The position numbers and the translations under genes are program-made. 59,763 nt of DNA from Oligoflexia bacterium (GTDB lineage Bacteria; Bdellovibrionota; Bacteriovoracia; Bacteriovoracales; Bacteriovoracaceae): positions 1 to 59,763 of the forward strand of contig JADGAM010000005.1 in NCBI GenBank assembly GCA_015232015.1, read 5' to 3'. The notes below the pieces were generated by a model. That model was not told the DNA's origin, searched no databases, and was given only the letters and a program-made list of their open reading frames with translations. This document shows, piece by piece, positions 428 to 45,761 of the stretch. Numbering within the stretch: position 1 is the first letter of the stretch; every line of letters starts with the position of its first letter.

Positions 428-2011
428 TCAAGTACTAATAGCTTTTTTAGATATTTCTTTGCCCAGTGATATTATTAATTGAAAAAGCTTATCAAGATCT
501 TCAGACGCAGTATTTTGATTCAATATTACCAATCTTAATGCCAATTTTCCCTTCCAAATTGCATAATTAATCATAAAATGCCCTTCAGAAATTATCTTTT
601 GCCTAATATGATAATTTATATCATTTTGAATTTTGAGATTATCTACATTACATTCTATACTACAACTGTCGGTATTATTATTGTTATATCTAAAAAGAAG
701 GATAAGTGACTGTCTTGGCACAATTAATTCTAAATTATCATTTTTTTTAATACACTCTTCTGCGTACTCTATAAGAGAAATAAGTTTACTAAATCTCTTT
801 GCTATTCCCTCATCACCAAAATATTGCCATAAACCCCACAGCTTCAGTGAATCTATTTTTCTTCCACATTGTAGAGAGTACTTACCAATATCATTATCGT
901 TATCATTATCGTTATTGTTATTGTTATTGTTATTGTTATCACTTTGAAAATCATCAGGACTTTGAGTATGAAATAAATAATCTCCTTCTCCTCCAGAAAT
1001 GGCATCTCTTAAAATACTTCCTTCCTTTAACATAATTGCAGAGCAAGTTAATGGAACTCCCATCAGTTTGTGTGCATCCAAAGAAAAAGAATCAGCAAAC
1101 TCTATGCCTTTAAGTATATCTTCATTTTGTTCTTTTGAAAAAAATCTTGATGGGTTAATTAGTAGCGGCCCTAAAAAAGCACCATCCACATGAAACCATA
1201 ACCCATATTTATTTGCTATTTCATATATTTTGTTAAATGAATCGATTGAGCCAGTAACTGTTGTTCCAAAAGTTGCGGCCACAAAAAAGGGTCTATCTCC
1301 AACAGTAATCGATTGTAAAATAGCTTTTTCTAATTCATCAACTCTCATTTTTCCATTTTCATCACTTGCAACCTTTACAACATTTTTGTGACCAATACCT
1401 AGTATATTTGCAGCTCTAAAAAATGAGTAGTGGGCCTCTTCAGAAATAAAAACTTTCAATTGATTTTTTATTGTACAAAAACCATCTTCCTTAAATTTTG
1501 GAAAAAGATAGTTTCTTGCACACAACAAGGCCATCATATTAGCATAACTACCACCCAAAACCAAAAGACCATCGGCCTCAGTCACCGAACCAGCTGCAAG
1601 CTTATGCTTATCCTTGGACCAAATCATCTCAGCAAATTTTTCAATTAATTTTTTTTCAATTAGTGTTGCAATTGGTGTCATCTCATAGGTGGCCATCGAT
1701 GAATTATTAAGAGTAGATAAAAATTCTGCGGCCAATGCAGGAATTTGCAATTCCCCATATAACTGATTAAAGAAATGCCTGTGCCCACTTAAAACACTAT
1801 GATCTAAGAATAGCTGCATACTATTGCAAAAATTTGTAAAGGCCTTGCCACAATCTTCAATATTATTTGGAATTATTAGATTTAATTTTGTTTTTAAATC
1901 ACTAATTGAAATGGCATTAGTAATTTTTTGTTGAGGATTATCTAATTTTTCTAGATAATCAATTATTGTTTTATATGTCCAAAGAAGCAATTCTTTTTCT
2001 TCAATATTCAT
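428..2011 (-). CDS. Group II PLP-dependent amino-acid decarboxylase (glutamate/cysteine-sulfinate decarboxylase-like)
   Basis: The protein has 527 residues and the fold-type I group II decarboxylase motifs: the substrate/PLP-stacking His in EEAHYS near residue 194, HVDGAF with the PLP-nitrogen Asp at about 276, and the Schiff-base Lys at about 315 in DAHKLMGVPL. The stretch from that Lys through CSAI, YLF and LQCGRK is arranged as in animal glutamate and cysteine-sulfinate decarboxylases, so an acidic amino acid is the likely substrate. An Asn/Asp tract at about 358-374, encoded by 6-bp repeats, interrupts the usual loop before LQCGRK. It is the last gene of a minus-strand run with KAS, ACP and an FAD enzyme, 40 bp after its neighbour. 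A weak GAGG lies 10 nt before the ATG. The true substrate and product are not known. Confidence 0.85.
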   Translation of the reverse strand: MNIEEKELLLWTYKTIIDYLEKLDNPQQKITNAISISDLKTKLNLIIPNNIEDCGKAFTNFCNSMQLFLDHSVLSGHRHFFNQLYGELQIPALAAEFLSTLNNSSMATYEMTPIATLIEKKLIEKFAEMIWSKDKHKLAAGSVTEADGLLVLGGSYANMMALLCARNYLFPKFKEDGFCTIKNQLKVFISEEAHYSFFRAANILGIGHKNVVKVASDENGKMRVDELEKAILQSITVGDRPFFVAATFGTTVTGSIDSFNKIYEIANKYGLWFHVDGAFLGPLLINPSRFFSKEQNEDILKGIEFADSFSLDAHKLMGVPLTCSAIMLKEGSILRDAISGGEGDYLFHTQSPDDFQSDNNNNNNNNNDNDNDNDIGKYSLQCGRKIDSLKLWGLWQYFGDEGIAKRFSKLISLIEYAEECIKKNDNLELIVPRQSLILLFRYNNNNTDSCSIECNVDNLKIQNDINYHIRQKIISEGHFMINYAIWKGKLALRLVILNQNTASEDLDKLFQLIISLGKEISKKAIST

Positions 2012-2051: not shown

Positions 2052-3671
2052 TTACTCTTGATTAATATAAAAGTTAGCGATGGTTACTCCACTAAGTAAA
2101 GCACCCACTATTCCTAAAAAACCTTGGTCTGTGCCTGCTAAAAAAAGATTATGACAGTTTGCTGTTGGTAAACGACCATCTTTAAATTTTAATTTTGCTC
2201 CGTAAATACTACCTTGTAAATGCCCAGTATACTTGTGTATTGTTCTAGGAGTAAAAATATCATGATCGATTATCTTGGCCTGGCCAGTGTCACCGCTATC
2301 AATTGTAGGTAGAAGTTTTTTTAGGAGTGTCTTTGATGTTTTAAGTAATCTTGCTTTCTCTATAATATATTCTTCTCTAGAATATTTCGACCATAATTGA
2401 TAGTTGGCCAACATACTAAAACGGATCATGCTTTCTGATGATGATAATAATGATGATGATGTGGAAGATAGTGAATTAACTCCAAAATTATTAGGAAAAC
2501 AAACCACTGAACTATTGCTATCAACATTATCTTTTGGTTTATTATAAAAAAATTTATTTAAAGAATTGTTGTTGTAAAATATAATTGAAGTATCTTGGTA
2601 GTTTGCAGGAATTTCTTTATCTAAAATTAAAATTGTCTCTGTAAATGATAAATTTCCCACTAGCTCAGAATGCTCAGAATCTTTTTTCGCTAATTTCTCT
2701 TTCTCTAACTTCTCTACTAATCCCATAGTCTCAACATATCCTATTGTTGAGATCACTTTTTTACTCTGAATAATCTCTCCCGAATGCAAAGTAATTTCCC
2801 ACTCTCCATCTTTTCCATCTTTTCCATCTTTAAGTTTTAGAGAAGATACTTTTTTATTAAATTGTAATACCTTTTCAATCTTATAAATTGCATTTTTATC
2901 ACACTCTTCTTGTATGCGTGAGAGTAATAAATTAATTATGGTACGAACTCCACCTTTAGGTTTAGAAAATCCCTCTAGAAAAATGCTTCTAAACATAATC
3001 ACAAATTGTGAATAGTCCATATCATTTTCCCAAGAGCTACCGTACAAAAAAAGTGGAGTAAAAATCATCTCTAATAAAAGTGGATCTTTTATTATCTCAG
3101 ATACTTTTTCTTTAGCACTTAAATAAGGTTGATATAAATTATCATCAGAGTAAGAGACAACAAAGTTTATTAATTTTATAAAATTATCAATCTCTTTAGG
3201 GAAATATTCTTTTACTTCAGAAATCAAAAGTTCCATCTCATTAGAAAATTTTAAAGTACATCCTTGATATGCAAAATCAATTTTAGATATACGTTGTTGT
3301 TGCAAATCCATTTTATCAAAAGGAATTCTTAGTTGCCTCAACACCTTTAAAAAAGCATTGGGATTGTAATTTGCCCTAAGATTTGCTCTAAGATTAGAAA
3401 TATTACTACTATGATTATCACTACTACTATTATCACTATTATTATTATTATTAACGTTTTTATGTTTTAATTTGGGATTTGCATAGTTGGTTAAGGCATG
3501 TAGGCCAACATCAAAATCTCGTGATCCTCGCGAGTAATAGGAGTTAAGTCCACCTGCAATTGAATGTTTTTCTAATAATAAGACATTTTTATCAAACATT
3601 AATGCACGAATTGTTGCTGCTAATCCAGACATTCCTGCACCGATTATAACGACATCATATATTTGATTCAT
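2052..3671 (-). CDS. FAD-dependent oxidoreductase of the phytoene desaturase / carotenoid isomerase / retinol saturase family
   Basis: The N-terminus carries the Rossmann dinucleotide-binding fingerprint IIGAGMSGL (residues about 9-17), followed by the ADP-ribose acidic residue in LLLEKH and the GG motif of AGGLNSYY, typical of carotenoid desaturases and isomerases. The C-terminal FAD motif LFLAGTDQGFLGIVGALLSG is present. At 539 residues it is slightly long because of low-complexity Asn/Ser inserts at about residues 75-93 and 410-425. Such enzymes act on long conjugated or isolated C=C bonds of lipids. Between ACP and decarboxylase genes it may modify an ACP-bound or released acyl chain; this is inference. 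No strong Shine-Dalgarno precedes the ATG. Confidence 0.82.
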   Translation of the reverse strand: MNQIYDVVIIGAGMSGLAATIRALMFDKNVLLLEKHSIAGGLNSYYSRGSRDFDVGLHALTNYANPKLKHKNVNNNNNSDNSSSDNHSSNISNLRANLRANYNPNAFLKVLRQLRIPFDKMDLQQQRISKIDFAYQGCTLKFSNEMELLISEVKEYFPKEIDNFIKLINFVVSYSDDNLYQPYLSAKEKVSEIIKDPLLLEMIFTPLFLYGSSWENDMDYSQFVIMFRSIFLEGFSKPKGGVRTIINLLLSRIQEECDKNAIYKIEKVLQFNKKVSSLKLKDGKDGKDGEWEITLHSGEIIQSKKVISTIGYVETMGLVEKLEKEKLAKKDSEHSELVGNLSFTETILILDKEIPANYQDTSIIFYNNNSLNKFFYNKPKDNVDSNSSVVCFPNNFGVNSLSSTSSSLLSSSESMIRFSMLANYQLWSKYSREEYIIEKARLLKTSKTLLKKLLPTIDSGDTGQAKIIDHDIFTPRTIHKYTGHLQGSIYGAKLKFKDGRLPTANCHNLFLAGTDQGFLGIVGALLSGVTIANFYINQE

Positions 3672-5605: not shown

Positions 5606-5618
5606 CAGGAATGCTTTT

Positions 5619-5666
5619 ATGGGTATCAAACCTTTTATGGATATCAAACCTTTTATGGATATCAAA
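5619..5666 (+). repeat. 18-bp tandem repeat in the 5' coding end of fadH
   Basis: Two 18-bp units plus a partial third encode the repeated peptide M-[GD]-I-K-P-F. Each unit carries an ATG in frame, so copy changes would alter the N-terminus without breaking the gene. No conserved domain lies here. Confidence 0.85.
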
Positions 5667-7886
5667 CAAAGAGGAAGAGAAATGAGAAGTGAAATGGGGA
5701 CCGAAAGTGAAAAATATACTGGACAAATTTATCCTCATCTATTTTCTCCTCTTGATTTAAAATTCACAACATTAAAAAATCGAAGTGTGATGCTCTCGAT
5801 GCATACAGGCCATGAAGATCATTTTTTTTTTACAAAACTTTTACATTTCTATCAAGAGAGAGTGAGAGGAGATATTTCTCTTATTATAACAGGAGGAATC
5901 TCTCCAAACGTTAGTGGAGAGTTAAAATTTATGGGGGCCAAGCTTAGTAATTGGTTTGAAATAAAAAAACATCAATATTTAACAAAAAATTTGCATGCAA
6001 TTGATAATAAAACCAAAGTAATTATGCAAATACTTCATAGTGGAAGATATGCTTATCACCCACTTTGTGTTGCACCTTCTCGAATTAAATCCAATATAGC
6101 TCCTTTCACTCCTAGAAAACTAAGTTTGAATACTATTACCAAAACAGTAAATGATTTTATAGAATGTGCTATGCGGGCCCGAGAGGCCGGTTATGATGGT
6201 GTGGAAGTAATGGGTGCTCAAGGTTATTTAATAAATCAATTTTTAAACTCTAAAACCAATAAAAGAGAGGATGCTTATGGTGGTAATTATCAGAATATGA
6301 TTCGTTTTCCCTTAGAGATTGTAAGAGGAATTCGTGAAACCATTGGGCCAAATTTTATTATCAGTTACCGAATATCTATCGTTGATTTTATAAGTAGTGG
6401 ACAAAGTTTTCAGGAAGTAATACATCTGGCCCGTGAGATTGAAAATGCAGGTGCAAATATAATAAATACAGGAATAGGCCAACATGAGTCTTCTGTTCCC
6501 ACCTCCCAAATGCTAGTTCCTGAGGCCGCATTTTTACCTTTTATAAAGCAATTAAAAGAAAATGCTAAATTAAATATCCCTCTGATTGCAGGAATTAGAA
6601 TCAATACTCCAGAGATGGCAGAAAAAATTTTGACCCAAGGATATGCTGATCTAATAGGACTCGGCCGTCCCCTATTGGCCGATCCACACTTTCTTACCAA
6701 GAGCAAGCAGGAGCGAAGTAATGAAATAAGAACATGTGTGGCCTGTAATCAAGGGTGCCTTGATGAAATATTTAAAGGTAATGTAATAAATTGCATGGTA
6801 AACCCTGATGTTTTAAGTGAAATCACTTACGAAAACAGTTTTAAAGATTCAACTCACTCGAAAAATATTGCAGTTATTGGAGCAGGAGTAGCAGGTCTTT
6901 CTTGCGCAGTAACCTTAGCTGAAAAAGGTCATAAGGTACATTTATTTGAAGAAGAAAGTTATATTGGTGGGCAACTTTTTTTGGCGGCCACAAGTATAGA
7001 TGGCAAAAAGGAATTTTTAAAAATAATAAATTATTATCAAAACGCCATTAAAAAATTAGATATTAAACTTTATCTTAATAAAAAAATTTCAATAGAAAAT
7101 TTTGAAGATGAATTTTTTAATCACAAAATTAAAATGGATAAAGTAGTTTTGGCCCTGGGTACGAGAGCAAATATGATTACTAATATTGTTGGAATTAATC
7201 ATCCTAAAGTCGTCTCTTACTACAATCTATTAAAACAATTAAAGCAAAAAACTATTCAACTAGGTAGTCGGGTGGCCATCATAGGAAGTGGTGCCATTGC
7301 AATTAGTGTGGCCTATATGTTGTTAAAGAATAACAACAACAATAGTAGTAATAATAAAAATTATTATCAGGATTGGAAGATCGATTTAAGTTACACAAAT
7401 AGAGGAGGACTTTTTAATTGCGAACAACAAAATGAACAAGAACAAGAGCAAGAACAGAAAGACAAAGAAGGGCAAAAAGAAAAAAATAGAATAAAAAAAA
7501 TCTATCTATTACAACGAGGTGACAAAAAATTAGCACGAGGAATTGGAAAAACCTCTCGTTGGATTTATCTTAAAACAATTAAAAATAGTAATATTGTAGA
7601 AGTGATACGTAATGCTTGTTATGAAAAAATTGATGATCAAGGATTACATATTACAATTGATGAAATTCCACACCTATTAAATGTTGATAATGTTATTCTC
7701 TGTAATGGACAAACCACTAATTTTGATCCAACTCTTTATGAAAAACTCTGCACTTTGCTTAAAAGTACTTCCCTTAAAAATTATAAAAATGTACATATTG
7801 TGGGAGCTACTAGCGATGAAAAAACAAGTTCATTTGATGCTCGCGAAGCAATCCACCAAGGGTTTTTTACAGCAATGAAAATTTAA
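5619..7886 (+). CDS. fadH: 2,4-dienoyl-CoA reductase, FadH type (OYE barrel + FeS + FAD/NAD domains)
   Basis: The N-terminal half is an FMN-binding old-yellow-enzyme barrel with the FadH signature GYDGVEVMGAQGYLINQFL and the FMN-phosphate region IGLGRPLLADP. A CxxCxxxC plus distal Cys cluster motif (CVACNQGC, then NCMVNPD) follows near residues 372-392, then an FAD-binding fingerprint VIGAGVAGLSC. The family reduces 2,4-dienoyl-CoA with NADPH during breakdown of unsaturated fatty acids. At 755 residues it is longer than the usual 670 or so, owing to a repeated N-terminus and Asn and Glu-Gln inserts in the last domain. Start sites are ambiguous: ATG 5619 (AGGA upstream) or ATG 5682, which has AGAGGA at good spacing and lies closer to the conserved YPHLFSPL. 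It is divergent from the KAS/ACP run. Confidence 0.9.
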   Translation: MGIKPFMDIKPFMDIKQRGREMRSEMGTESEKYTGQIYPHLFSPLDLKFTTLKNRSVMLSMHTGHEDHFFFTKLLHFYQERVRGDISLIITGGISPNVSGELKFMGAKLSNWFEIKKHQYLTKNLHAIDNKTKVIMQILHSGRYAYHPLCVAPSRIKSNIAPFTPRKLSLNTITKTVNDFIECAMRAREAGYDGVEVMGAQGYLINQFLNSKTNKREDAYGGNYQNMIRFPLEIVRGIRETIGPNFIISYRISIVDFISSGQSFQEVIHLAREIENAGANIINTGIGQHESSVPTSQMLVPEAAFLPFIKQLKENAKLNIPLIAGIRINTPEMAEKILTQGYADLIGLGRPLLADPHFLTKSKQERSNEIRTCVACNQGCLDEIFKGNVINCMVNPDVLSEITYENSFKDSTHSKNIAVIGAGVAGLSCAVTLAEKGHKVHLFEEESYIGGQLFLAATSIDGKKEFLKIINYYQNAIKKLDIKLYLNKKISIENFEDEFFNHKIKMDKVVLALGTRANMITNIVGINHPKVVSYYNLLKQLKQKTIQLGSRVAIIGSGAIAISVAYMLLKNNNNNSSNNKNYYQDWKIDLSYTNRGGLFNCEQQNEQEQEQEQKDKEGQKEKNRIKKIYLLQRGDKKLARGIGKTSRWIYLKTIKNSNIVEVIRNACYEKIDDQGLHITIDEIPHLLNVDNVILCNGQTTNFDPTLYEKLCTLLKSTSLKNYKNVHIVGATSDEKTSSFDAREAIHQGFFTAMKI

Positions 7887-8489: not shown

Positions 8490-10361
8490 CTACGTATTTT
8501 TAGTAATTATTTCTAGTACACAAACGTTATTTATCACTCTTTTTGATTCTTGTGAGATTTTATAAATATTATGAATACTTTTTTTTAAACTTTGTATTTG
8601 GGATATCTTAAACGAAAAATAGTTCACATCTGTTGTTTTGAAAAAATTTTCAAATGAAAAATTATGAGGTGTTGAAATATGTTTATCAACTTCTCCCTTA
8701 GCATTTACAACTGGCAAAGTTTTAAAAATTCCTCCTCCAAAGTTATTTAGTATAATTATTATAAGAGGGGGAAGATACAAATTATATTCTTTAAGAAAAT
8801 TTGCATTTAAATATATTAATGAATTTAAATCATGGATCATGGCCAAATCACCAATTACTAAAGTTACTGCTTTTTTAGATGAAATAGCATACCCTATACT
8901 ACTGGCCATAAAACCTTCGATTCCACTTACCCCCCTATTAGAAATAATTTTCAATTCTTTATTCTTATTTGGATTCATTTTACCTATATTCATTTTATTT
9001 GGAAGGTAACGATTAAAAAGTCTAATAGTCAAACTGTTGGCCAAATATAAAATATGATCATTAATAAAACATTGATTTGAAATCTCTTGAACTAGATTTT
9101 TAAAAATTAAATTTTCATCATCAGGATGATCTAATTTTATTTTTTCAATCTTATTAATTTTATTATATTCTACTTTTTTAAAATTTATTTTTTTAAAATA
9201 ATTTATTGCTTGCAAACAAAAAACATCAAGCGCTAACTCAATTTTTAAGTTTACTCTATGAACTGGATCTTGTTTATTAGGATATTCATTAATTAAAATA
9301 TAATTACTTTCTTTGTTTTTTTCTGTTAAGTATTTGTAAAACCCATTAGAAAGTACTCTTCCTCCTAAATGTAAAATTAAATCAGGCGAGTGTTTTTTCT
9401 CACTTAAAAAATTTAAAACAAAATCATTCTCAAAGTTTAAAGAGTAGCGAGCATATCTTAGAGATGACAAAACATCATAATAAACATAAGTGATTTTATT
9501 TTCACTTAAAAAATTTATCATCTCCACAATAGGTTTTAAATTACAAGTTGTTTTTAGGCGGCCTACTACTATTAAAATTTTTTTAGCATTTGCTATTGTT
9601 GTGGCAGTTGGGGCAATTTCAGAAAGATATGTTGAAGGGCGAATAATTTTAACTATTTTATTAAAATTATTTTTATATATTTGTTTTAATTTTTTTTCTA
9701 CAAAACGCTCTAACAATAAGGCGTTTCTTTGATTATTCCATAATGGTTCTCTAAAAGGAACATTGATGTGAATGGGGGCACTTGGATAGGCATGGGCGGT
9801 GGCAAATATTTGATCAATTTCTCTTACTAATGCCTCAATAGGATAATCAGAATCAGCAGGTAACATATTTAAATTAGCTTTACTATACTTTGAATATATT
9901 TGATTTTGATCGATGGTTTGGTTAGCATCACTATTAACCATCTCTAGAGGACGATCAGCACTTAATATTATAAGAGGTATTTGATCTCGATATGCCTCGA
10001 TAATTGCGGGATAATAATTAGCAAGCGCTGTTCCTGATGTACAAATTAAAACTGCTGCCACATTATTACTGGCCTTCGATGCTGCTAATGCCAGATAGGC
10101 CCCCGCTCTTTCATCTATTGCAGGAATTGAGATAATTGAAGCATCTCTTTTTTTAATATAATTTATGGCCCATACGAGGGGTGCACAGCGGTGGCCGGGA
10201 GAAATAATAAAATTTTTTACTCCATTTCGCCTTAATCCCTCTAATATTATTGTAGAATATAAAAAATTATTTTTTAGTATTTTCTCTTTTGCTATTGATT
10301 TTGCTAGTGATTTTGTTACTGATTTTTCTTTTGATTTTTTTTTAAGTAAATTATTTTTCAA
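8490..10361 (-). CDS. menD: 2-succinyl-5-enolpyruvyl-6-hydroxy-3-cyclohexene-1-carboxylate synthase (MenD)
   Basis: This ThDP enzyme joins 2-oxoglutarate to isochorismate in menaquinone synthesis. MenD hallmarks are present: ISPGHRCAPL, CTSGTALANYYPAI, ADRPLE followed by ANQTIDQ, then SNRGVSGIEG, GDLAMIHDLNSL (ThDP/Mg site) and LNNFGGGIFKTLP. The frame is open back to a GTG at 10496, but that would overlap the first codons of the divergent gene at 10454. TTG 10359-10361 has AAGGAA at a spacing of eight and leaves a 92-bp divergent promoter, so I chose it. The product is then about 623 residues, still longer than the usual 560-580, with a Lys/Ser-rich N-terminal extension. No other men gene is in view. 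Confidence 0.9.
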   Translation of the reverse strand: MKNNLLKKKSKEKSVTKSLAKSIAKEKILKNNFLYSTIILEGLRRNGVKNFIISPGHRCAPLVWAINYIKKRDASIISIPAIDERAGAYLALAASKASNNVAAVLICTSGTALANYYPAIIEAYRDQIPLIILSADRPLEMVNSDANQTIDQNQIYSKYSKANLNMLPADSDYPIEALVREIDQIFATAHAYPSAPIHINVPFREPLWNNQRNALLLERFVEKKLKQIYKNNFNKIVKIIRPSTYLSEIAPTATTIANAKKILIVVGRLKTTCNLKPIVEMINFLSENKITYVYYDVLSSLRYARYSLNFENDFVLNFLSEKKHSPDLILHLGGRVLSNGFYKYLTEKNKESNYILINEYPNKQDPVHRVNLKIELALDVFCLQAINYFKKINFKKVEYNKINKIEKIKLDHPDDENLIFKNLVQEISNQCFINDHILYLANSLTIRLFNRYLPNKMNIGKMNPNKNKELKIISNRGVSGIEGFMASSIGYAISSKKAVTLVIGDLAMIHDLNSLIYLNANFLKEYNLYLPPLIIIILNNFGGGIFKTLPVVNAKGEVDKHISTPHNFSFENFFKTTDVNYFSFKISQIQSLKKSIHNIYKISQESKRVINNVCVLEIITKNT

Positions 10362-10830: not shown

Positions 10831-13011
10831 CTATTTCCCAATTTGCTTCCAGAGGTATGAATAAATCAATGCACTCACTTTAGCTAATTGTTCATTGTTT
10901 GTAGTACCAGCATGCCCACCCTCAATATTTTCAAAATAATAAATTTTATGAGAGTACTCTAACATTTTGGCCGCCATTTTTCTTGCATGTCCGGGATGAA
11001 CTCTATCGTCTTCAGTACTTGTGGTGAAAAATATTTGTGGATATGATTTTTCTTTAGATAAATTGTGATAAGGAGAATAACTAAGAAGTACTTCTCTCAT
11101 TTTTGGATCCTCTGGATCACCATACTCATCCATCCAAGATCTGCCTACAAGAAGTTTTGAATAACGAAGCATATCTGTTAAAGGTACTTGGCAAACAACT
11201 GCATTATATAACTCTGGCCTCTTTGTAACCGCAGTTGCCACCAATAATCCTCCATTGCTTCCTCCCCATATCCCAAGATGTTTTCCTGAGGTAATTTTCT
11301 CCTTAATTAATTCTTCAGAAACAGCAAAAAAATCTTCAAAAATTTTATGTCTATTTTCTTTTAAAACGCTTTTATGCCAATTGGGCCCATATTCTCCACC
11401 TCCCCTGATATTGGCCAAAACATACACTCCACCTTTTTCCAACCAAGCATTACCAACCATCTCCAAATAATTTGGAGTCATTGATGATTCAAATCCTCCA
11501 TAGGCATATAATAGCGTTGGATTTGTTCCATCATATTTTATATTTTTATTATGTACTATAAAATAAGGAATCTTGGTTCCATCTAAACTAGTGGCAAACT
11601 TTTGAAGGGTAATAAATTTTGATGAATCAAATCTTTGTGGCAACGATTTTATTTTTTGTAATTTATTTGTTTGTTGATTGTATAAATAAAGCGAAGTTGG
11701 AGTAAGGAAATCTGTGTAATAAAAAAATGCTAAATTGGAAAATACACTCATATCAAAAATATTTGCATTACCCATAGTAGGTAGATCAATTTTTTTTGCT
11801 ACCCAATTATTAATTTTATTATTAGGTTTTAATTTTAAAATACTTGATTTAACATCATTTAAAACACCAACATATATGGCATCTTTTCCACTTAAAACAT
11901 ATTGAATAATTTGCTTGTCGCTATTTTCAATAACCACATTAAAACTTTTTTCATTTACTCGATTTTTCACTACATCGTTGTAGTTTAGGCCTATAATACT
12001 TCCAGCAGCTACTTTTTTCTTTACTTTCTTTTTATAAATTTCAAACTCATCTTTAATTTTAAATAAAATAGTTCCATCAAAAACATCATAGAAGTCTGCG
12101 GTAAGAGGAATAGGAAGTTTTGTTAGGGTATCATCATCTTTTAAAATAAATACCTCTTTTTGTAAGTAAGAAATAATTCTAAAAACGAAGTGATAATTTT
12201 TCTTTTCAGTAAATATTGTAAATGCAGAAGCTGAGTTATCATCAATTTTTCCTTCGAAAATAGTTTTAGCTTCATTTAAGTTTGTTCCTCTCTTCCACTT
12301 CTTTACAATTCTAGGATACCCTGTTCTTGTTAAACTATCTTTTCCAAAATTTGTAGCTACAAAAACTGTATCTCTGTCATACCAAGTAATTCTATGTTTC
12401 TCTTCTTCTAATAAATTAAACCCATCTTTAACAAACTCTTTTTTAAAAAAATCAAATTCTCTAACAACAACAGCGTCTTTTCCTCCTTTAGATAAAGAGA
12501 TAAGATTTCGATCATAACTAGGTAACAACCATCTAGAACCCTTATAAACCCAATTTTCTTTTTCCTTTATCGCCAATTGATCAATATCTAAAACAGATTC
12601 CCATTGGGTATTTTCTTTTAAATAACTATCAAGTTGTGTTCTTCGAATAAGACCCTTTATATTTTTTTCATCTTGCCAAAAATTATAAAGAAATTTCCCT
12701 CTATTTGTTGGGTAAGGAATCTTATCTTTGGCATTTAAAATATTAAGACTTTTAAAATAAAATTCTTTATAATCTACATAATTTTCTAATACCGCCAAAG
12801 TCTCTGCATTTCTTTCTTTGACCCAATTAATTGCTTTTTCACCTTTAATATCTTCAAGCCAAAAGTATGGAACTTCATTTTTTTCAATATTTTTTTCAAT
12901 ATTTTTATTAATATTATTATCAACACTATTTTTCATAGGTTCTCCAGAACATGATAATAAAAAAAAGCACAGTATCATTAAAAAATATAAAATATTTTCA
13001 CTCATTTTCAT
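10831..13011 (-). CDS. Prolyl oligopeptidase family serine peptidase (S9A), lipoprotein
   Basis: The N-terminus has a lipobox (FFLLSCSGEP), so the enzyme is anchored in the envelope. A beta-propeller domain fills about residues 40-430, followed by the alpha/beta-hydrolase domain: IRGGGEYGPNWH, the nucleophile in WGGSNGG (about residue 580), the acid in TEDDRVHPGH and the His in IEGGHAG. The length of about 726 residues matches S9A enzymes, which cleave after proline in short peptides. The start is ATG 13009-13011, with AGGGAAG seven bases upstream, in preference to a GTG two codons earlier. It follows yjbQ by 16 bp and is probably cotranscribed. Degradation of imported or prey-derived peptides is a guess. 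Confidence 0.93.
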   Translation of the reverse strand: MKMSENILYFLMILCFFLLSCSGEPMKNSVDNNINKNIEKNIEKNEVPYFWLEDIKGEKAINWVKERNAETLAVLENYVDYKEFYFKSLNILNAKDKIPYPTNRGKFLYNFWQDEKNIKGLIRRTQLDSYLKENTQWESVLDIDQLAIKEKENWVYKGSRWLLPSYDRNLISLSKGGKDAVVVREFDFFKKEFVKDGFNLLEEEKHRITWYDRDTVFVATNFGKDSLTRTGYPRIVKKWKRGTNLNEAKTIFEGKIDDNSASAFTIFTEKKNYHFVFRIISYLQKEVFILKDDDTLTKLPIPLTADFYDVFDGTILFKIKDEFEIYKKKVKKKVAAGSIIGLNYNDVVKNRVNEKSFNVVIENSDKQIIQYVLSGKDAIYVGVLNDVKSSILKLKPNNKINNWVAKKIDLPTMGNANIFDMSVFSNLAFFYYTDFLTPTSLYLYNQQTNKLQKIKSLPQRFDSSKFITLQKFATSLDGTKIPYFIVHNKNIKYDGTNPTLLYAYGGFESSMTPNYLEMVGNAWLEKGGVYVLANIRGGGEYGPNWHKSVLKENRHKIFEDFFAVSEELIKEKITSGKHLGIWGGSNGGLLVATAVTKRPELYNAVVCQVPLTDMLRYSKLLVGRSWMDEYGDPEDPKMREVLLSYSPYHNLSKEKSYPQIFFTTSTEDDRVHPGHARKMAAKMLEYSHKIYYFENIEGGHAGTTNNEQLAKVSALIYSYLWKQIGK

Positions 13012-17005: not shown

Positions 17006-17986
17006 TTACTTTATTTCTTGCTCTAAATAATTCATAGTCTTATCAATTTTTTGTAAGTTTTGCTTACTTTGCTCTGATAAATTTTTGTTATTGTGATCTT
17101 CAGCTGGCATAGAAACATCTTCTTTGTTTGTTTGATCTACAGCTTGTTGCTTTTGAGTCTGCTGAGGTTGAAGCTTTAGTGTTTTATTGTCCATCTCCAT
17201 CTTCTCTGCCATTTCTTTTATTTCTGAAACTTGATTTTTAAGAGATTCCAATCCTTGCTTCATGTCTTTTTGATTTTGTTGTTTTTCTTGCTCTAACTTA
17301 GTTTGTTTGCTTACACTTTGACTTTGAGTTTGTTGATCTTGAGTTTGATTATCGAGCATTTTTTTATGGTCAGCAATTTTTGCTAAAAGTTTAGCTTCCA
17401 TAGCAAATACATTAGTTGCATCAACTATTGCTGGAATTGAGTTATCATTAGCTGCTTCGTTAGTACTATAAATAGGATAACCAATATATCTATAAGCAAG
17501 ACATACTAATCTATATGGATGATAGTAGCAATAGCATGCTGGATTACTTCTAAATGTACAATAGCGAGGATAGTATGGTCTATATGGTCTATAATGTCTG
17601 TATCCATATCCATATCTATAATCTGGATAATATCTACCTGGGAAAGGTCTATACATACGGAAATTTCTATCGCCACGGAAATGTCTGTCTCCACCACGAC
17701 CTATACGGAAATTTCTATCACCACGGAAATGTCTGTCACCACCACGGCGGAAAGAACGACGATCTCGGTCCAATAATGAGATAAAATCAGAATTCTCTAT
17801 ATTTGAATTCAAGACATCCTCATCCATATCATTGTATCCTAGATCATTGGCAACACTGGCATTTAAATCACTTGCACTTTGGGCCAGGTCGTTCACTAAC
17901 TCATTAACTTTTTCACTGCTTGCATACAAGGAAAATGAGAAAACAAAAGTTACAAACGCGAATAAGGGTAGAAAATACTTAGTCAT
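17006..17986 (-). CDS. Secreted Arg/Tyr-rich repeat protein with Gln-rich coiled coil
   Basis: GGAGG at a spacing of four precedes the ATG. A signal peptide (to about YASS, residue 24) leads into a low-conservation segment, then a 15-residue duplicated unit R-G-G-D-R-H-F-R-G-D-R-N-F-R at about residues 81-110. An extremely Tyr/Arg/Pro-rich stretch (110-150) follows, then a short Cys-containing region, and a Gln/Lys/Glu-rich coiled coil from about 195 to the end. The order resembles structural or surface-binding proteins rather than enzymes. I do not recognise a family. The basic aromatic repeat could bind polyanions such as LPS, peptidoglycan or nucleic acid; this is inference. Confidence 0.75.
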   Translation of the reverse strand: MTKYFLPLFAFVTFVFSFSLYASSEKVNELVNDLAQSASDLNASVANDLGYNDMDEDVLNSNIENSDFISLLDRDRRSFRRGGDRHFRGDRNFRIGRGGDRHFRGDRNFRMYRPFPGRYYPDYRYGYGYRHYRPYRPYYPRYCTFRSNPACYCYYHPYRLVCLAYRYIGYPIYSTNEAANDNSIPAIVDATNVFAMEAKLLAKIADHKKMLDNQTQDQQTQSQSVSKQTKLEQEKQQNQKDMKQGLESLKNQVSEIKEMAEKMEMDNKTLKLQPQQTQKQQAVDQTNKEDVSMPAEDHNNKNLSEQSKQNLQKIDKTMNYLEQEIK

Positions 17987-21165: not shown

Positions 21166-22759
21166 TAAATTTTTTCTCCAATTTATGTCGACTTAATTTT
21201 ATCTGAAAGCGTGTTGGTGTTGGTAAAAAACTCAATTGTCCATCTAAATCCTCAACAATTTTTTTTACTATCTTTAATCCTAGTCCCATTCCCTTGCTCT
21301 TAGATGATTTTACAAAATCACCACACATCTGCTCAATAGTTTTAAAACTGCAACTTCCCTCATCAGCAACCTCAATTAGCAATTCATTATTTTTAGAAAA
21401 AAACAAAGAAAAGGTGACAGGTGACAATCCATGAGCAAAACTATTTTCAATTAAATTTTTTAAACAAATACCTATCCAATGCTGATCAAAATAAAAAAAG
21501 GAATCTTCTTTTAAAAGAACAATTTTTAATTGCCCTTCTTCTATTTTATTTAAAAAATAGTGATCAATTATTTCAGATAAAAAAACATTAATAGAATCAA
21601 TTTTTTTAAGTTGAAATTTAAAAACATTTTTAGAAGAAAGATTAAGATAACTTGAACTTTTTTCAACAAGCCTTTGTAAACGATATACATCATTTGATAA
21701 TCTTAATGCTATATCTTGCAGTGGTAATCCAATATGGTTAAAATTTTGTTGAATTTTTTCAATCCCCAAAAGCATGGCCGCCACAGGAGTTCTAAATTCA
21801 TGAGTTAAAATCTGTAAACTATGCCTACGTTGATCTTCGCTTTTTCTCTCTTTTAAAATATTTTTTATTAACACCATAACGACAAGAATCAAAAGCACAA
21901 TAGATGTAACAAAAAGATAAATTGAAAAACTCCCAACCATTTGAAAAAGATAACCCACAGAATATCTCCAACAACTATTTCCCATTTCATAAAGACATTT
22001 TTTTTGATTCTGATCTTGGCGTTTTTCAATCATTATAAATTGACTACTATCCAAAAATTTTTGAACCTCATTTAAATCATAGATATAATAACGTCCATCA
22101 ACTAATGAATCGAATTTTTTAACTAACAAATAATCATCAAGTAAAATTAAAACATCCGCGTTCACAAGATATTGCAAACGAGCAAGATTAAAACTACCAA
22201 AAATATCTAACAATTTACTCTTGGAAACTTTCTTTTCATTTTTAATTTCATTTAACTCAAGAATATGAAATAGATTTAGATTACGTTCAATCCAATCTCG
22301 ATTTAACTTTACTTTTTTCATTTTGTAGTAAAGATAAACATAACTTTTACCGCTTGGATGTATATATGGTGGGTATTCAAAAAACATATCTGGCAATTCA
22401 TCTATCAAAGAACATTCAAATTGTTGCCACAACTCATCTTTACGATATATATCTAAAAAATTTTTATATTTTTCCTTTTGTTTTTGTTGGCAATTAATTT
22501 TATTATTTTGAGAGAGAGACGATGAGCTGTATAGCTCAGGATTAAGAAGCTTTCTCTTCTCAAAATTATCATAAATTTTAAAGATATCAATAATTCCATT
22601 TGCCTTAACAGATGCAACCATTTTAAAAATAGTTTCTTCAACTGAAACTTCTTTTTCTTGATTATTATAAAAATCTTGATCTTTAAAAAGATATGACCAA
22701 CGTCCAAGAATGAATGCCATAACAATAATTATAGCAATTAAAAACAGATGTATGCGCAT
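21146..22759 (-). CDS. Membrane sensor histidine kinase, possibly VxrA/DUF3404-like
   Basis: A signal anchor (residues 4-20) and a second membrane helix (about 278-299) bracket a periplasmic sensor domain of about 255 residues. The kinase core has the H-box ILTHEFRTP with His at about 320, the N-box LIENSFAHG, and the G2 region KGMGLGLKIVKKI. In the sensor, the segment YPPYIHPSGKSYVY and the Cys pair in CLYEMGNSCWRY remind me of DUF3404 sensors such as Vibrio VxrA; this is from memory and needs a profile search. The start codon sits at the end of an ATTT tetranucleotide tract with no Shine-Dalgarno, so translation probably depends on the DUF35 gene just upstream. Confidence 0.9.
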   Translation of the reverse strand: MRIHLFLIAIIIVMAFILGRWSYLFKDQDFYNNQEKEVSVEETIFKMVASVKANGIIDIFKIYDNFEKRKLLNPELYSSSSLSQNNKINCQQKQKEKYKNFLDIYRKDELWQQFECSLIDELPDMFFEYPPYIHPSGKSYVYLYYKMKKVKLNRDWIERNLNLFHILELNEIKNEKKVSKSKLLDIFGSFNLARLQYLVNADVLILLDDYLLVKKFDSLVDGRYYIYDLNEVQKFLDSSQFIMIEKRQDQNQKKCLYEMGNSCWRYSVGYLFQMVGSFSIYLFVTSIVLLILVVMVLIKNILKERKSEDQRRHSLQILTHEFRTPVAAMLLGIEKIQQNFNHIGLPLQDIALRLSNDVYRLQRLVEKSSSYLNLSSKNVFKFQLKKIDSINVFLSEIIDHYFLNKIEEGQLKIVLLKEDSFFYFDQHWIGICLKNLIENSFAHGLSPVTFSLFFSKNNELLIEVADEGSCSFKTIEQMCGDFVKSSKSKGMGLGLKIVKKIVEDLDGQLSFLPTPTRFQIKLSRHKLEKKFNEIQRF

Positions 22760-22785
22760 TTATTTATTTATTTATTTATTTATTT
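22758..22785. repeat. (ATTT)7 tetranucleotide tract between DUF35 stop and kinase start
   Basis: Seven ATTT units run from inside the ATG of the kinase gene (minus strand) through the stop codon of the DUF35 gene at 22776. Read on the coding strand as TAAA repeats it gives stops in every frame, and it replaces any ribosome site for the kinase. Confidence 0.9.
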
Positions 22786-23171
22786 TGAGGCACAAATTTA
22801 TATCCATAGGCAATTATTCCACTCTCCCCGTCTTCTCTAATCTTTCTTATCTCCATAACTACCCTACTAACATTTTTTATTTCATCAACTGTACAGTCTG
22901 CAATTTGAGTAGTTACTCGTACTCCATTTGTTAGCTCTACTATGGCCACAACATAAGGAGATAAATCTTCAAAACCCACTGGTGGTACATATTGAATAGT
23001 GTAAGTAACTATCTTTCCTTCTTGGGGAAGATCTACTACTTCAAAATCACGCCCTTTACATTTTGGACAAATAATTCTTGAGGGAAATTCTATGTGATTG
23101 CATTTCTTACACTTAGAAGCTTCAAAACGATATCTATGATTATATTCACGCCAATTTTTTGCTGGAAACAT
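22776..23171 (-). CDS. DUF35 OB-fold zinc-ribbon protein, thiolase/HMG-CoA synthase scaffold
   Basis: The 131-residue protein has a rubredoxin-like zinc ribbon with Cys21, Cys24, Cys35 and Cys38 (CKKCN and CPKCKG), then an OB fold with YTIQYVPPVGFEDLSPY. In archaea the equivalent protein bridges acetoacetyl-CoA thiolase and HMG-CoA synthase so that the intermediate passes along a shared CoA site. Here the gene directly follows the thiolase gene (ribosome site GGGAGG inside its end, adjacent coordinates), with the HMG-CoA synthase gene before that, as in archaeal operons. Confidence 0.9.
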   Translation of the reverse strand: MFPAKNWREYNHRYRFEASKCKKCNHIEFPSRIICPKCKGRDFEVVDLPQEGKIVTYTIQYVPPVGFEDLSPYVVAIVELTNGVRVTTQIADCTVDEIKNVSRVVMEIRKIREDGESGIIAYGYKFVPQNK

Positions 23172-25486: not shown

Positions 25487-25526
25487 TGTCATATTTTCAT
25501 ATTGTCATATTGTCATATTGTCATAT
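25487..25526. repeat. 8-bp tandem repeat (TGTCATAT, five units) upstream of HMG-CoA synthase
   Basis: Five units, four perfect and one with a single change (TTTCATAT), start 26 bp upstream of the ATG and right behind the ribosome site. A tandem operator or slippage-prone leader is possible. The rest of 25527-25736 is AT-rich and shows nothing I can name. Confidence 0.85.
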
Positions 25527-25736
25527 GTAATATTGGATGATAATTAATCCATTTTTTCTAACATCTAAGTCATTTGGTGGCAAATACTATTTTTTCTTAA
25601 GAATAGAGCTTTAGTTCTAAAAATTACCAAATATATCCAAGATTTTAGCTTGAAGTAAAAAAAATTTTTAAATCAATTTATAAATTATAATCAAGATGAT
25701 TAAATCAGAGTTATCAAACATTAATGAGTTTACACA

Positions 25737-29001: not shown

Positions 29002-29409
<408 letters not shown>

Positions 29410-29456: not shown

Positions 29457-31670
29457 ATGAGGAAACAAACCTTGGGTAAATCATCAGCATTAATTAAAGA
29501 AAATGAAAATCTAGAATTGGAGAATTCCGCAGAAGAAAAAGTGCTAGAATCAGCACTAGAAACAGAACCTGAAACAGAACCTGAAGCAGAAACAGAAGCA
29601 GAATCAAAATCATCTCCTTCACTAGAAATTGGTATTTACGAACCATCTGCTAATGAAAAAGGATCTTCCACAAAGCCCAATTATAAACCTTCCTTTACTG
29701 AAATTGATTCTATGGATTCGATTGATGGCGAAGTTGACGTAAATAGTGGTGAAAAAAACTATTTCATTAGTTTTAATGGAGAAGAATACATTTTTGTAAA
29801 ACACTCATGTCTTGTTGGTGCTAATGAAAATGCTAAAATTAACATAGCAGATATTCATAAATCACCTCAAATATGTAAATTCTACGTTCATAATGGTCTA
29901 CTTTATCTTCTCTGTTTACAAAATATAACTGAGGTAAAGGTTCAATCAAAAATCTTAAAGGCAGGAAAACTACATATATTAAAATATAAAGATAGTATTT
30001 CTATCGAGTATCATAAATTAGAGATCTTCCCTGAAATTCCTTTAATTTTAGAAGATCCAGAAGAAATGGCACGTAAGAGAAAGGAGCGAGAAGAGGAATT
30101 TAACAAGTCAATTGGAATGGATAAGGATGGTAAAAAGATAAATAAAGAAGAAGAAAAAAAAGAAAATGATAAGGAAAAGCTAGAATCTCTATCTTTTTCT
30201 GAGAGGATAGATCTATTTATTACTGATTTTAAAGATAATATTAAATATATCTACACTGCCTTATTAAATGATCTTTTATTTATTTCATTTTTTGATAAAA
30301 ATCCTAAAACGCATTTGGCCTCCTCTTTTCGAAGAGTACCCGCCTTTATTTTAGATTTAATTTTAGCATCATCTCTTCATTTCATACTACTTAATCTTAA
30401 AATCAAAGAATACATTTTAGCTAATCACCATCTTAATAGTGATCTACTCTCTCTCTTTTCTCCTCTTTTTTCAATACTAGGAACGACCCATGCTACAATA
30501 ATAATTAGCAATATAAAAACTAATATCGATGCAATTCCCCTTTTGCTTTTTATAACTCAACAAATACTATTTACTTTTATTTTGGGAACAACACTTTTTG
30601 GATTCGTTTTGGGAATTAGAGCTCACGGCAATCTATTATTTAATCGCACAGTAGGACTCATTCGTTGCATTTTTGGAATAGTAACTCTACCTTTAGTTAT
30701 TTTTGATTTACCTCTATTAATGAACGCTCCCTCAGTAAAAGAAATTATTTTTAGATCCCTTCTTATTACAAGAATTAAAGATCCTGTTAGTAAGAATGAA
30801 GAAAAAGAAGTAACAGCTGAAGAAAAAAATAAAAAAGAAGATGAAGATAGTGATGATGAAAAAGATAAGGATAAATATAAAAAAGATGAAAAGAATGATG
30901 CCAGTCAAGAAGATGAAAAAGATAACATAGATGATTTAGTTATAGAAGAGATAACTATTGAACAAGAAATTGCTCAAATAATGATTATACCTAATCGTTT
31001 GCGACTTATTCAAAAATACATTAGAGAAAATTTAAATAAAAATATTATAAGTTCTAAATTACTTTTATTTTATGACAAAATAAGCACCCTATTAGAAAAA
31101 TTATTATTACAAAATATTTATAGTCGAAAAAATAATTTTAAATTTCCTGATATCTCCACAAGACTTTTTGCGCTTTCTTTAGACATTGCCGTTCCGACAG
31201 GTCTTTGTAAATTTATAATTGAAGAAAATCAATTAAATGTTTTTTCTAACAGTATTTTAAAGGAATATTTTGTTATCAATTCACTTGTAACGACATATGT
31301 TTATAATTTTTACTCAAATATTATCTTCTATTCAAATCAAATTTTACATACATCAATATCACTTGATTATATGTACCGATCTCTATTTTCAATCATTCCA
31401 CCAATGCCTGTAATTTTATTTTATTTAACTTTTAATTTGTTATTAGGAGTATCTTTATTTCAATTCATCTTAGGCATTAGGTCATCATACAAATCTTTCA
31501 TCTTTAAAAGGATAATGGCCTCAATAAGATCGGCAATCGGCCTTACTTTACTTCCATACATTGTATTCGAATTAAGTTTAATTTTTAAGATTCCATCGTT
31601 TAAAGAAATCGTAACCAGAGGAGCATTGGTAGAATATTATCGAAATAAAACGAAAAAAAATAAAAAATAA
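29457..31670 (+). CDS. FHA-like domain fused to two RDD-family membrane domains
   Basis: Residues 1-75 are an acidic repeat-rich head (E-T-E-P units). About 103-200 have the strand pattern of an FHA-type domain (CLVGANENAKINIADIHKSPQICKF etc.), though the classic phosphothreonine-binding Arg and Ser are not clear. Two RDD-like membrane units follow, at about 275-445 (FRRVPAFILDLILAS, then LGIRAHGNLLFNR) and 565-730 (STRLFALSLDIAV, then LGIRSSYKSFIFKR), joined by a Lys/Glu-rich linker of about 60 residues. RDD proteins are poorly understood membrane proteins, some linked to ion transport. A duplicated RDD with a cytoplasmic FHA-like head is unusual. No ribosome site precedes the ATG. Confidence 0.7.
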   Translation: MRKQTLGKSSALIKENENLELENSAEEKVLESALETEPETEPEAETEAESKSSPSLEIGIYEPSANEKGSSTKPNYKPSFTEIDSMDSIDGEVDVNSGEKNYFISFNGEEYIFVKHSCLVGANENAKINIADIHKSPQICKFYVHNGLLYLLCLQNITEVKVQSKILKAGKLHILKYKDSISIEYHKLEIFPEIPLILEDPEEMARKRKEREEEFNKSIGMDKDGKKINKEEEKKENDKEKLESLSFSERIDLFITDFKDNIKYIYTALLNDLLFISFFDKNPKTHLASSFRRVPAFILDLILASSLHFILLNLKIKEYILANHHLNSDLLSLFSPLFSILGTTHATIIISNIKTNIDAIPLLLFITQQILFTFILGTTLFGFVLGIRAHGNLLFNRTVGLIRCIFGIVTLPLVIFDLPLLMNAPSVKEIIFRSLLITRIKDPVSKNEEKEVTAEEKNKKEDEDSDDEKDKDKYKKDEKNDASQEDEKDNIDDLVIEEITIEQEIAQIMIIPNRLRLIQKYIRENLNKNIISSKLLLFYDKISTLLEKLLLQNIYSRKNNFKFPDISTRLFALSLDIAVPTGLCKFIIEENQLNVFSNSILKEYFVINSLVTTYVYNFYSNIIFYSNQILHTSISLDYMYRSLFSIIPPMPVILFYLTFNLLLGVSLFQFILGIRSSYKSFIFKRIMASIRSAIGLTLLPYIVFELSLIFKIPSFKEIVTRGALVEYYRNKTKKNKK

Positions 31671-38932: not shown

Positions 38933-38938
38933 ATTGAA

Positions 38939-38993
38939 AATGATCTTAAAATGATCTTAAAATGATCTTAAAATGATCTTAAAATGATCTTCC
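38939..38993. repeat. 11-bp tandem repeat (AATGATCTTAA, about five units)
   Basis: Four perfect units and a fifth ending in CC follow the stop of the ankyrin gene by seven bases. The 11-bp period is close to one DNA helical turn. A second 11-bp-period array with a different unit lies at 45593. Confidence 0.95.
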
Positions 38994-41542: not shown

Positions 41543-42169
41543 CTACTGAATCGATCCTGCTGTCTTTCCAAAGTAATTAATGACTGTTTTTCTCTGAGAA
41601 ATTACCTCTAATTTTGTAACACTTGCATTAGGTGGAAGATAACGAAAAAAATCATTACTCTTCATAATATGGTTTATTATCTGACTAATTGTTCCCCCAT
41701 GAGTAACTACCGCAACAGAGGCCACATTCGAAGTTGTCGACATATTATTTTTTATCTCTCTATAAGTTGTTATAACCCTACTCTTAAACTTGCTATTGCT
41801 TTCTCCATTAGGGAAATTAAATTTTAGTTGTTCTTTCATCCATTTATTAAAGTGTTGTGGATATTGTAACTTAATTTCTTCTATGTTTAATCCTTCAAAT
41901 AAACCTAAATGTATTTCTCTAAACCCAGGATTTTTTTTTATTCTCCTATGTGGAAATAAGATTTTTGCGGTTTCAATTGCTCGAACAAGATCACTACAAT
42001 AAATTTTATCAACATTATTTAATTCATGATTTTTATTTTTTTTAATGTTTTTTTGTAGTGATAAAACCTCTTTTTTTCCAAATGAGTTCAATAATACATC
42101 AGTATAACCACAAAATATTTTTTTAAAATTAGCATCAGTTTGGCCATGTCTAATTAAATAGATAATCAT
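41543..42169 (-). CDS. cobC: Histidine phosphatase, probably alpha-ribazole phosphatase (CobC)
   Basis: The RHG motif IRHGQTDAN with the phospho-accepting His near residue 8, the conserved Arg-x-x-x-T in SDLVRAIETA and the second His in VTHGGTISQI identify the histidine phosphatase superfamily. Its start overlaps the stop of the cobD-cobQ fusion gene by 4 bp, so the two are translationally coupled. That context supports CobC, which dephosphorylates alpha-ribazole phosphate or adenosylcobalamin phosphate late in B12 assembly. By sequence alone it could be a phosphoglycerate mutase relative. Confidence 0.85.
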   Translation of the reverse strand: MIIYLIRHGQTDANFKKIFCGYTDVLLNSFGKKEVLSLQKNIKKNKNHELNNVDKIYCSDLVRAIETAKILFPHRRIKKNPGFREIHLGLFEGLNIEEIKLQYPQHFNKWMKEQLKFNFPNGESNSKFKSRVITTYREIKNNMSTTSNVASVAVVTHGGTISQIINHIMKSNDFFRYLPPNASVTKLEVISQRKTVINYFGKTAGSIQ

Positions 42170-44928: not shown

Positions 44929-45579
44929 TTAACCTTTAATCTTTATAGAAATTCCACTTACTAAAAAATATACTTCATGGGCATTTTTAGCTATTAATTG
45001 ATTTATTCTACCAACAAAATCTCGATACTTCCTTGAAAGAGAATTTTCTGGAACAATACCCATACCAAGTTCATTGCTAACAAAAATTACACAACTATTA
45101 CTATTGTTATGATTTGATTCTAAGTTTGATAGTGGTTCCAACATATCGTTTGCTATCTTCAACAGTTCTTCCTCTTGCAATTTTGGATTGTGATAAATAA
45201 GGTTATTTACCCACAAAGTAAGACACTCTACTAATATAATTACTTGTTGCTTTTGGTATTGATTTTTATTTTGATTTTTGTTTTGATTTTTGTTTTGATT
45301 TTGATATCTAAAAAAAATCTTTTTCAAATCTAACTCTTCTTCTATAGTTTCCCAAAGTTTTGCACTACGATTTTTTTTATGTTGATTTATTCTCTCTTGC
45401 ATTTCTAAATCACCCTTAATAATAGGTGCCGTTGCTAAATAAATTTTTCTTTGCTCGTTACTTTTCTCATTACCTTCATTACCGTCATTACCATCATTAT
45501 CTATTTCTTCTGCGTACTTTTGAGCAAAGCTACTTTTTCCACTCCTACAACCACCAGTTACAAAAATAATTTTTGCCAT
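44929..45579 (-). CDS. cobU: Adenosylcobinamide kinase / cobinamide-phosphate guanylyltransferase (CobU)
   Basis: The P-loop GGCRSGKSSFAQ lies at residues 9-20, the guanylylated His is probably in ERINQHKKNR (about 67), and VSNELGMGIVPENSLSRKYRDFVGRIN near the end is a CobU signature. An insertion of repeated Asn-Gln-Asn-Lys (about residues 97-110) and a Gly-Asn-Asp run near 28-37 make the 216-residue product longer than the usual 180. It opens the minus-strand cob run. No cobS (cobalamin synthase) is in the window. No cobalamin riboswitch is apparent in 45580-45761. Confidence 0.93.
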   Translation of the reverse strand: MAKIIFVTGGCRSGKSSFAQKYAEEIDNDGNDGNEGNEKSNEQRKIYLATAPIIKGDLEMQERINQHKKNRSAKLWETIEEELDLKKIFFRYQNQNKNQNKNQNKNQYQKQQVIILVECLTLWVNNLIYHNPKLQEEELLKIANDMLEPLSNLESNHNNSNSCVIFVSNELGMGIVPENSLSRKYRDFVGRINQLIAKNAHEVYFLVSGISIKIKG

Positions 45580-45592
45580 AATTGCCTTTTTA

Positions 45593-45646
45593 AAATTTAA
45601 TTCAAATTTAATTCAAATCTAATTCAAATTTAATTCAGATTTATTC
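45593..45646. repeat. 11-bp tandem repeat (AAATTTAATTC, about five units) upstream of cobU
   Basis: Four units (one with a single change) plus a diverged fifth unit lie 14-67 bp upstream of the cobU start. The period matches one helical turn and the A-tracts are phased, which would bend the DNA. Confidence 0.9.
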
Positions 45647-45761
45647 AAATTTTTCCTAGCACTCACATCAATACATCTCGTGTTACAATTATCATATTAA
45701 ATATAGTTACTCATTAATTTAAAACCTTTTTACTCAGGATTTTATAAGGGAAAGAGATTTT

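Follow-up and report, generated by a model that had tools for sequence, protein, structure and literature searches.

The window, by which we mean the whole 59,763-nucleotide stretch of DNA that was analysed, is crowded with tandem arrays, and the excess is a property of the genus, seen in two genomes: that of the window (G000) and that of a congener (G001). As the probable explanation we see slippage of long units, in excess throughout the genus, with reading frame and the tolerance of protein loops acting as filters. Counted as non-overlapping TRF arrays with a score of at least 50, the window has 31 arrays, or 51.9 per 100 kb, compared to 5.0 in one order-2 Markov shuffle. Other stretches of G000 (209 kb) have 43.5 arrays per 100 kb, and the one congener examined has 33.9 over 292 kb, with two of its 20 stretches picked around the decarboxylase and thus not all of them random. 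Shuffles of the three genus sets gave 5.0, 1.4 and 0.7 arrays per 100 kb, and 17 other relatives (approximately 0.79 Mb, 28 arrays) ranged from 0 to 8.3. G030 (GC 54%) was included in this count and left out of the exact-run count given below. Since G019, with 30% GC, reaches 8.3 arrays per 100 kb, GC content does not explain the density in the genus. The preliminary description had proposed a census against relatives and composition, and by both standards the density exceeds expectation.

An ORF-by-ORF search covered 212 ORFs in G000 and 312 in G001, and at least one array was found in 47 and 72 of them, respectively (22-23% of sampled ORFs); 26 of the 149 arrays found in this way were perfect. 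Matched orthologous genes had 28 arrays in 17 genus copies and four in 64 copies from relatives (score of at least 40), five of the nine gene families having been picked because the window copy has a tract. In MutS, MutL, PolA and RecJ, which were not picked for tracts, there were 10 arrays in seven genus copies versus two in 31 copies from relatives.

The density had also been called unusual for bacteria. It is far above that of composition and relatives, but it is not unique, as six of 79 other named loci reach at least 46 arrays per 100 kb. Five of these belong to the cyanobacteria Moorena or Symploca, an unrelated phylum with a similar density (47-64 per 100 kb). L232, a contig of a Bacteroidales MAG, has 10 arrays in 12.5 kb, a density equal to that of the genus studied. 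What is distinctive is the combination of two congeners, arrays in more than a fifth of ORFs, a sharp onset at 5 nt and matched relatives without them. Poly-Asn was considered as a signature and rejected: the Asn8 pattern turns up here and there across the phylum, in 36 of 368 genomes, and G000 does not stand out by it, its 16 overlapping hits comparing with 20 and 14 in two other genomes, within sampling. A search of the open-licence PMC literature on repeats in bacteria, Bdellovibrio and Bacteriovorax found no description of the genus or of such inserts in it.

Arrays within the window

Tracts had been reported in eight proteins besides the decarboxylase (the FAD enzyme, FadH, CobU, CobDQ, GmhB, pseudo-receiver, RlmI and M14 proteins), and all were located. 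Beyond the nine proteins first named, arrays were found in the MenD-like, prolyl-oligopeptidase-like, CheW-receiver and Tex-like genes. Proteins and coding arrays are as follows.

428-2011, minus strand: group II PLP decarboxylase, GAD/CSAD type (PF00282, E 6e-71; fold match CSAD 6zek)
889-945, minus strand: array under study, 6-nt units encoding N9(DN)3D, decarboxylase residues 359-374
2052-3671, minus strand: FAD oxidoreductase with arrays at 2685-2715, 2805-2831, 3369-3395 and 3401-3448; tracts NNNNN, LRANLRAN and DGKDGKDG
5619-7886, plus strand: FadH-like flavin enzyme with arrays at 5614-5667 and 7422-7456 (EQ), plus an Asn run; tracts NNNNNSSNN and EQEQEQEQ
10287-10338, minus strand: 12-nt array, 4.3 copies, in a MenD-like TPP enzyme (PF02776)
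12877-12935, minus strand: 12-nt array, 4.8 copies, in a prolyl-oligopeptidase-like protein (named by sequence appearance)
29298-29338, minus strand: 6-nt array, 6.8 copies, (SE)n, in a pseudo-receiver-like protein (no match in a Pfam search)
29558-29603, plus strand: 6/12/18-nt array, ETEPEAETEAE, near the N terminus of the protein at 29457-31670
42402-42432, minus strand: 9-nt array, 3.4 copies (NANNANNAND), in CobDQ; no array there in the congener
42687-42711, minus strand: (AAT)8, N8, in CobDQ; no array there in the congener
43681-43735, minus strand: 6-nt array, 9.2 copies (Ser/Asn/Lys), in the linker joining the CobD-like and CobQ-like parts
45247-45302, minus strand: 12-nt array, 4.7 copies (NQNK), in CobU (PF02283); tract NQNKNQNKNQNK
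45467-45499, minus strand: 9-nt array, 3.7 copies (NDG/NEG), in CobU; tract NDGNDGNEGNE; no array there in the congener
45794-45840, plus strand: 9-nt array, 5.2 copies (SNS), at the N terminus of a CheW-receiver protein
48394-48466, minus strand: 12/24-nt array, NQ-rich, at the N terminus of a GmhB-like HAD phosphatase
48839-48866, plus strand: 6-nt array, 4.7 copies (PT), past the signal peptide of an M14-like peptidase
49906-49936, plus strand: 12-nt array, 2.6 copies (ANTG), in an RlmI-like methyltransferase; another 12-nt array at the congener site
50583-50633, plus strand: 15-nt array, 3.4 copies (QNFDN), in the RlmI-like methyltransferase

Several other features of the window were recorded. 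A single frame at 42166-44922 joins the CobD-like and CobQ-like parts; the fusion is full-length in G001 and in the sister genus G020, and is absent from nine other family genomes searched. A 48-nt unit occurs in about two copies at 17655-17746 within an Arg/Gly/Tyr-rich, secreted-looking protein. Five perfect copies of the 11-nt unit AAAATGATCTT occupy the intergenic gap between an ankyrin-like and a radical-SAM-like gene (38937-38991), and a second 11-nt array (5.5 copies, 45593-45652) separates cobU from the CheW-receiver gene. At 22758-22785 a perfect (ATTT)7 spans the stop codon of the gene at 22776-23171 together with the ATG of the histidine kinase that comes next, so that a change in copy number would shift the stop-to-start spacing by 4 nt per step. 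An 8-nt array at 25487-25535, (TGTCATAT)6 with about six copies, ends at the start codon of an HMG-CoA-synthase-like gene; every copy contains an ATG followed by a nearby TGA, so that mini-ORFs of three codons each form a ladder in front of the gene.

The decarboxylase insert and the re-use of sites

The decarboxylase had been described as carrying an (N)9(ND)n insert built of 6-bp units, and this reading was borne out. TRF places the array at 889-941, with a unit of 6 nt in 8.7 copies or of 18 nt in 2.9 copies. The product runs from N359 to N367 and continues as DNDNDND, residues 359-374 being NNNNNNNNNDNDNDND. On the minus strand AAC and AAT alternate strictly before giving way to AACGAT/AATGAT, and the strict alternation indicates that the Asn run is a 6-nt unit repeated and not a series of randomly chosen Asn codons. 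The longest exact period-6 self-match in the array spans 23 bases. The corresponding maximum per window averaged 9.3 over 200 order-3 Markov windows, with a largest value of 13.

The enzyme has the marks of a group II PLP decarboxylase, namely the PF00282 domain, the PLP lysine region (DAHK) and the catalytic loop tyrosine, and its best structural match is CSAD 6zek (Z 43.5, rmsd 1.7, 467 residues aligned). H314, K315 and Y345 are invariant in 48 of 48 sequences, and Y345 aligns with the tyrosine of 'YLF' in GAD65, residue 425 by arithmetic from the entry numbering, which ends at 584. Since the insert starts 14 residues past the invariant Y345, the presumed catalytic tyrosine, the array extends the segment behind the catalytic lid and leaves the tyrosine intact. 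A model of the enzyme, for which 47 homologues were used together with the window protein, has a mean pLDDT of 89.8; residues 351-370 average 50, while most of the core exceeds 90. In this model the insert is a poorly predicted loop just past the presumed catalytic tyrosine, and the earlier suggestion of mapping inserts on structures to see whether they fall in loops thus has a positive answer for the one insert modelled.

Genomic relatives were collected with an alignment scan (396 found, 80 kept); a scan with the single sequence, unlike the alignment scan, found none. The stretch from YLF to SLQCGR has 30 residues in G000, 19 in G001 and a median of 11 in the 80 sequences, one of the 80 loci (L249) being without a usable frame; in the sister genus G020 it has 10. 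The two congeners fill the site differently, with N9(DN)3D in G000 and a 12-nt unit giving HQDDHQDD in G001. Likewise, the M14-like peptidase has PTPTPT in the window and an unrelated 12-nt array, DKDKDK, in G001.

To compare sites across the congeners, 17 reciprocal pairs were aligned, three of which are antisense shadow ORFs. Eight of 24 G000 arrays (23 distinct ones, since one shadow ORF counts the decarboxylase array twice) had a G001 array no more than 10 columns away, compared to 3.1 expected on position shuffling, and eight shared sites were reached in 10 of 2000 shuffles. Re-use of sites is thus shown. Seven of the eight have clearly different units in the two genomes; in the eighth, NKGNKGN versus NKANHKANH, the units may be related.

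Neighbouring copies were compared in 58 3n arrays of G000 and 82 of G001. Mismatch at codon positions 1, 2 and 3 was homogeneous in both, at 0.139, 0.145 and 0.156 in G000 (chi-square p 0.67) and 0.134, 0.117 and 0.142 in G001 (p 0.35). Were the repeated peptide of importance, most differences would be expected at third positions; the equal mismatch argues otherwise and indicates that there is no constraint on the repeated peptide. Selection for the tracts themselves is without support. Asn is 2.4- to 2.7-fold enriched among array residues, and Leu, Tyr, Phe and Val are depleted, a residue make-up of the kind that surface loops accept.

Unit length, reading frame and repair genes

The preliminary description held that most arrays in coding sequence are 3n-bp repeats, and the counts agree. 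The unit is a multiple of three in 118 of 127 coding arrays, including 19 of 19 in the window, compared to 36 of 94 elsewhere, which is near one third (Fisher p 7e-19). The window has 12 non-coding arrays, a class that takes in arrays overlapping a gene end, or about 200 per 100 kb of non-coding DNA, several times the density within genes; across the genus the non-coding density is 105-201 per 100 kb, compared with 0-70 in relatives. Because arrays are found genome-wide and non-coding DNA is hit harder, the 3n rule reflects filtering and no mechanism peculiar to coding sequence. Read most simply, the counts mean that arrays form in all parts of the genome and those that are not 3n are purged from genes.

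The name microsatellites, used earlier for these inserts, suits them in part. They do lie in frame within conserved enzymes, but 109 of the 127 coding arrays have units of 9-24 nt, which brings them closer to minisatellites, and units of 1-4 nt are, measured against expectation, not raised above the level of relatives. The arrays consist of head-to-tail copies of units of at least 6 nt, as minisatellites do. Exact runs with units of at least 5 nt (periods 17, 19, 20, 22 and 23 omitted) numbered 89 in G000 (269 kb) and 94 in G001 (387 kb), compared to three in 351 kb and six in 320 kb of pooled relatives and three in 60 kb of G019. This is 13- to 39-fold above the two pooled sets and approximately 5- to 7-fold above the AT-rich G019. 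With units of 1-4 nt, the observed number came to 0.48 of the Markov expectation in G000 and 0.45 in G001, versus 0.39, 0.50 and 0.31 in relatives; the raw counts of 22-28 per 100 kb versus 12-13 are in keeping with the lower GC.

MutS and MutL score above the curated cut-off in both genomes and keep the expected motifs, being neither missing nor truncated, and RecJ and XseA are present in the genus. Genus-only inserts occur in the mismatch-repair genes (L129-L132), one of 31 columns in MutS and several in MutL, and MutL itself has three and four arrays in the two genomes. Genus-only substitutions were found at 5 of 187 invariant columns in PolA, 19 of 179 in RecJ, 31 of 321 in MutS and 9 of 97 in MutL, in a genus with a long branch and with unequal numbers of comparison rows. 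Because MutS, MutL and RecJ carry both genus-only inserts and substitutions, it is conceivable that repair is weakened or partly lost. A search for SbcD gave one sub-threshold match in G000 and nothing in G001; five of 14 further family members likewise yielded none, and the three of these that were sampled have 0-5 arrays per 100 kb. Loss of SbcD is therefore not sufficient as a cause, since relatives with few arrays lack it as well. PolA is intact in G001, and its apparent split in G000 comes only from unread bases (N) within it. A Gly-to-Ser change in the PolA nuclease motif seemed specific to the genus in a comparison with two relatives, but was rejected because G007 and G002 have it as well. 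No molecular lesion was identified among MutS, MutL, RecJ, XseA, SbcD and PolA.

Origin and meaning of the arrays

We infer that slippage was the event behind the arrays, that its rate was raised beyond mere tolerance and that mismatch repair is active. Tandem duplication followed by copy-number change, both by strand slippage with units of about 5-24 nt, would occur in excess throughout the genus. The loops that Escherichia coli MutS can repair measure at most four nucleotides (PMC5427490, citing Iyer 2006), and prokaryotes generally suppress 1-3 nt repeats but not longer ones (PMC4060949). As loops above about 4 nt are not handled by bacterial MutS, longer slips would persist. Mismatch repair appears to be working and would hold 1-4 nt slips at the level of relatives; given the unit spectrum and the MutS loop limit, the genus looks proficient in mismatch repair, and the excess would consist of slips that this system cannot see. 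Reading frame would be the first filter, with mainly 3n units surviving in coding DNA, and the second would be survival where the protein tolerates extra polar residues, in surface loops, linkers and termini. Such permissive sites would be struck repeatedly, in different species and by different units. Part of the excess could come from a higher tolerance of indels.

That tolerance could be taken as the whole explanation, with slippage at a normal rate in a lineage that, through small effective population or large genome, keeps indels that its relatives purge. Both genomes (4.9 and 5.6 Mb) are larger than most family members listed, and MutS, MutL and RecJ are altered at 9-11% of the columns invariant in six to eight relatives, which is what a weakening of purifying selection would produce. 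We nevertheless regard relaxed selection as unlikely: a non-coding excess that equals the coding one in strength would not be explained by protein-level selection, the 3n filter is strong, a coding fraction of 0.87-0.90 indicates that the genome is not decaying, and G020 is equally large (5.6 Mb) with 8.3 arrays per 100 kb. Artefacts of metagenome binning are scarcely credible. The genome of the window, in 413 contigs, has a completeness of 85% and the congener is apparently a MAG, but both genus genomes show the arrays while other relatives, several of them apparently MAGs, do not, and a copy divergence of approximately 12-16% with 3n coding units would not be the product of assembly error.

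Phase-variation loci classically rely on frame-shifting units. If the arrays were adaptive contingency loci, in-frame length change would tune enzymes, or arrays near start codons that are not 3n would switch expression; in one enzyme the array adjoins the catalytic loop, and the (ATTT)7 and (TGTCATAT)6 arrays touch gene starts. The spread of arrays over 22-23% of sampled ORFs, the absence of codon-position bias, units that are not conserved from congener to congener and coding units that, in 118 of 127 arrays, cannot shift the frame make this very improbable. Classical microsatellite instability through loss of mismatch repair would find some encouragement in the genus-only inserts of MutS and MutL, but it was rejected, and we give it very little credence, because both genes are present above their cut-offs with their motifs and mono- to tetranucleotide tracts are no commoner against expectation than in relatives.

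The excess of long-unit slippage that we favor has partial parallels elsewhere. Plasmodium proteins contain polar, Asn-rich low-complexity inserts in conserved enzymes encoded by an AT-rich genome. The inserts described here are alike in all these respects, and they differ in being bacterial, in having units mostly of 9-24 nt and in that a relative of like GC (G019, 30%) is far poorer in arrays. Bacterial VNTR or minisatellite loci similarly have tandem units of 6-24 nt, some perfect, but the arrays of the genus reach 22-23% of sampled ORFs. The survey of long simple sequence repeats in prokaryotes by Mrazek and co-workers (PMC4060949) reports suppression of 1-3 nt units but not of 4-11 nt units, the same split as in G000 and G001; longer units are in general normally represented there, whereas here those of at least 5 nt are far above relatives and lie within ordinary enzymes.

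We also advance, tentatively, a stronger form of the slippage explanation, which may well prove wrong: the genus could be a stable mutator for long units, in which small-loop repair works and the removal of loops or flaps of at least 5 nt is altered. Arrays would then be born across the genome at least 10-fold faster than usual, and they would extend the same loops over and over in core enzymes, among them the mismatch-repair proteins. Candidates for the altered step would be a flap nuclease, an exonuclease, a polymerase or a helicase. If this is true, two repair capacities, for loops of up to about 4 nt and for longer ones, would be separated in an unmanipulated lineage, and the step that limits long-unit slippage elsewhere could be sought by comparing the genus with its sisters. 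The genus would also be a natural experiment on where conserved enzymes can take up random peptides, with insert tolerance readable in core enzymes as well as in a repair system that carries inserts in its own genes.
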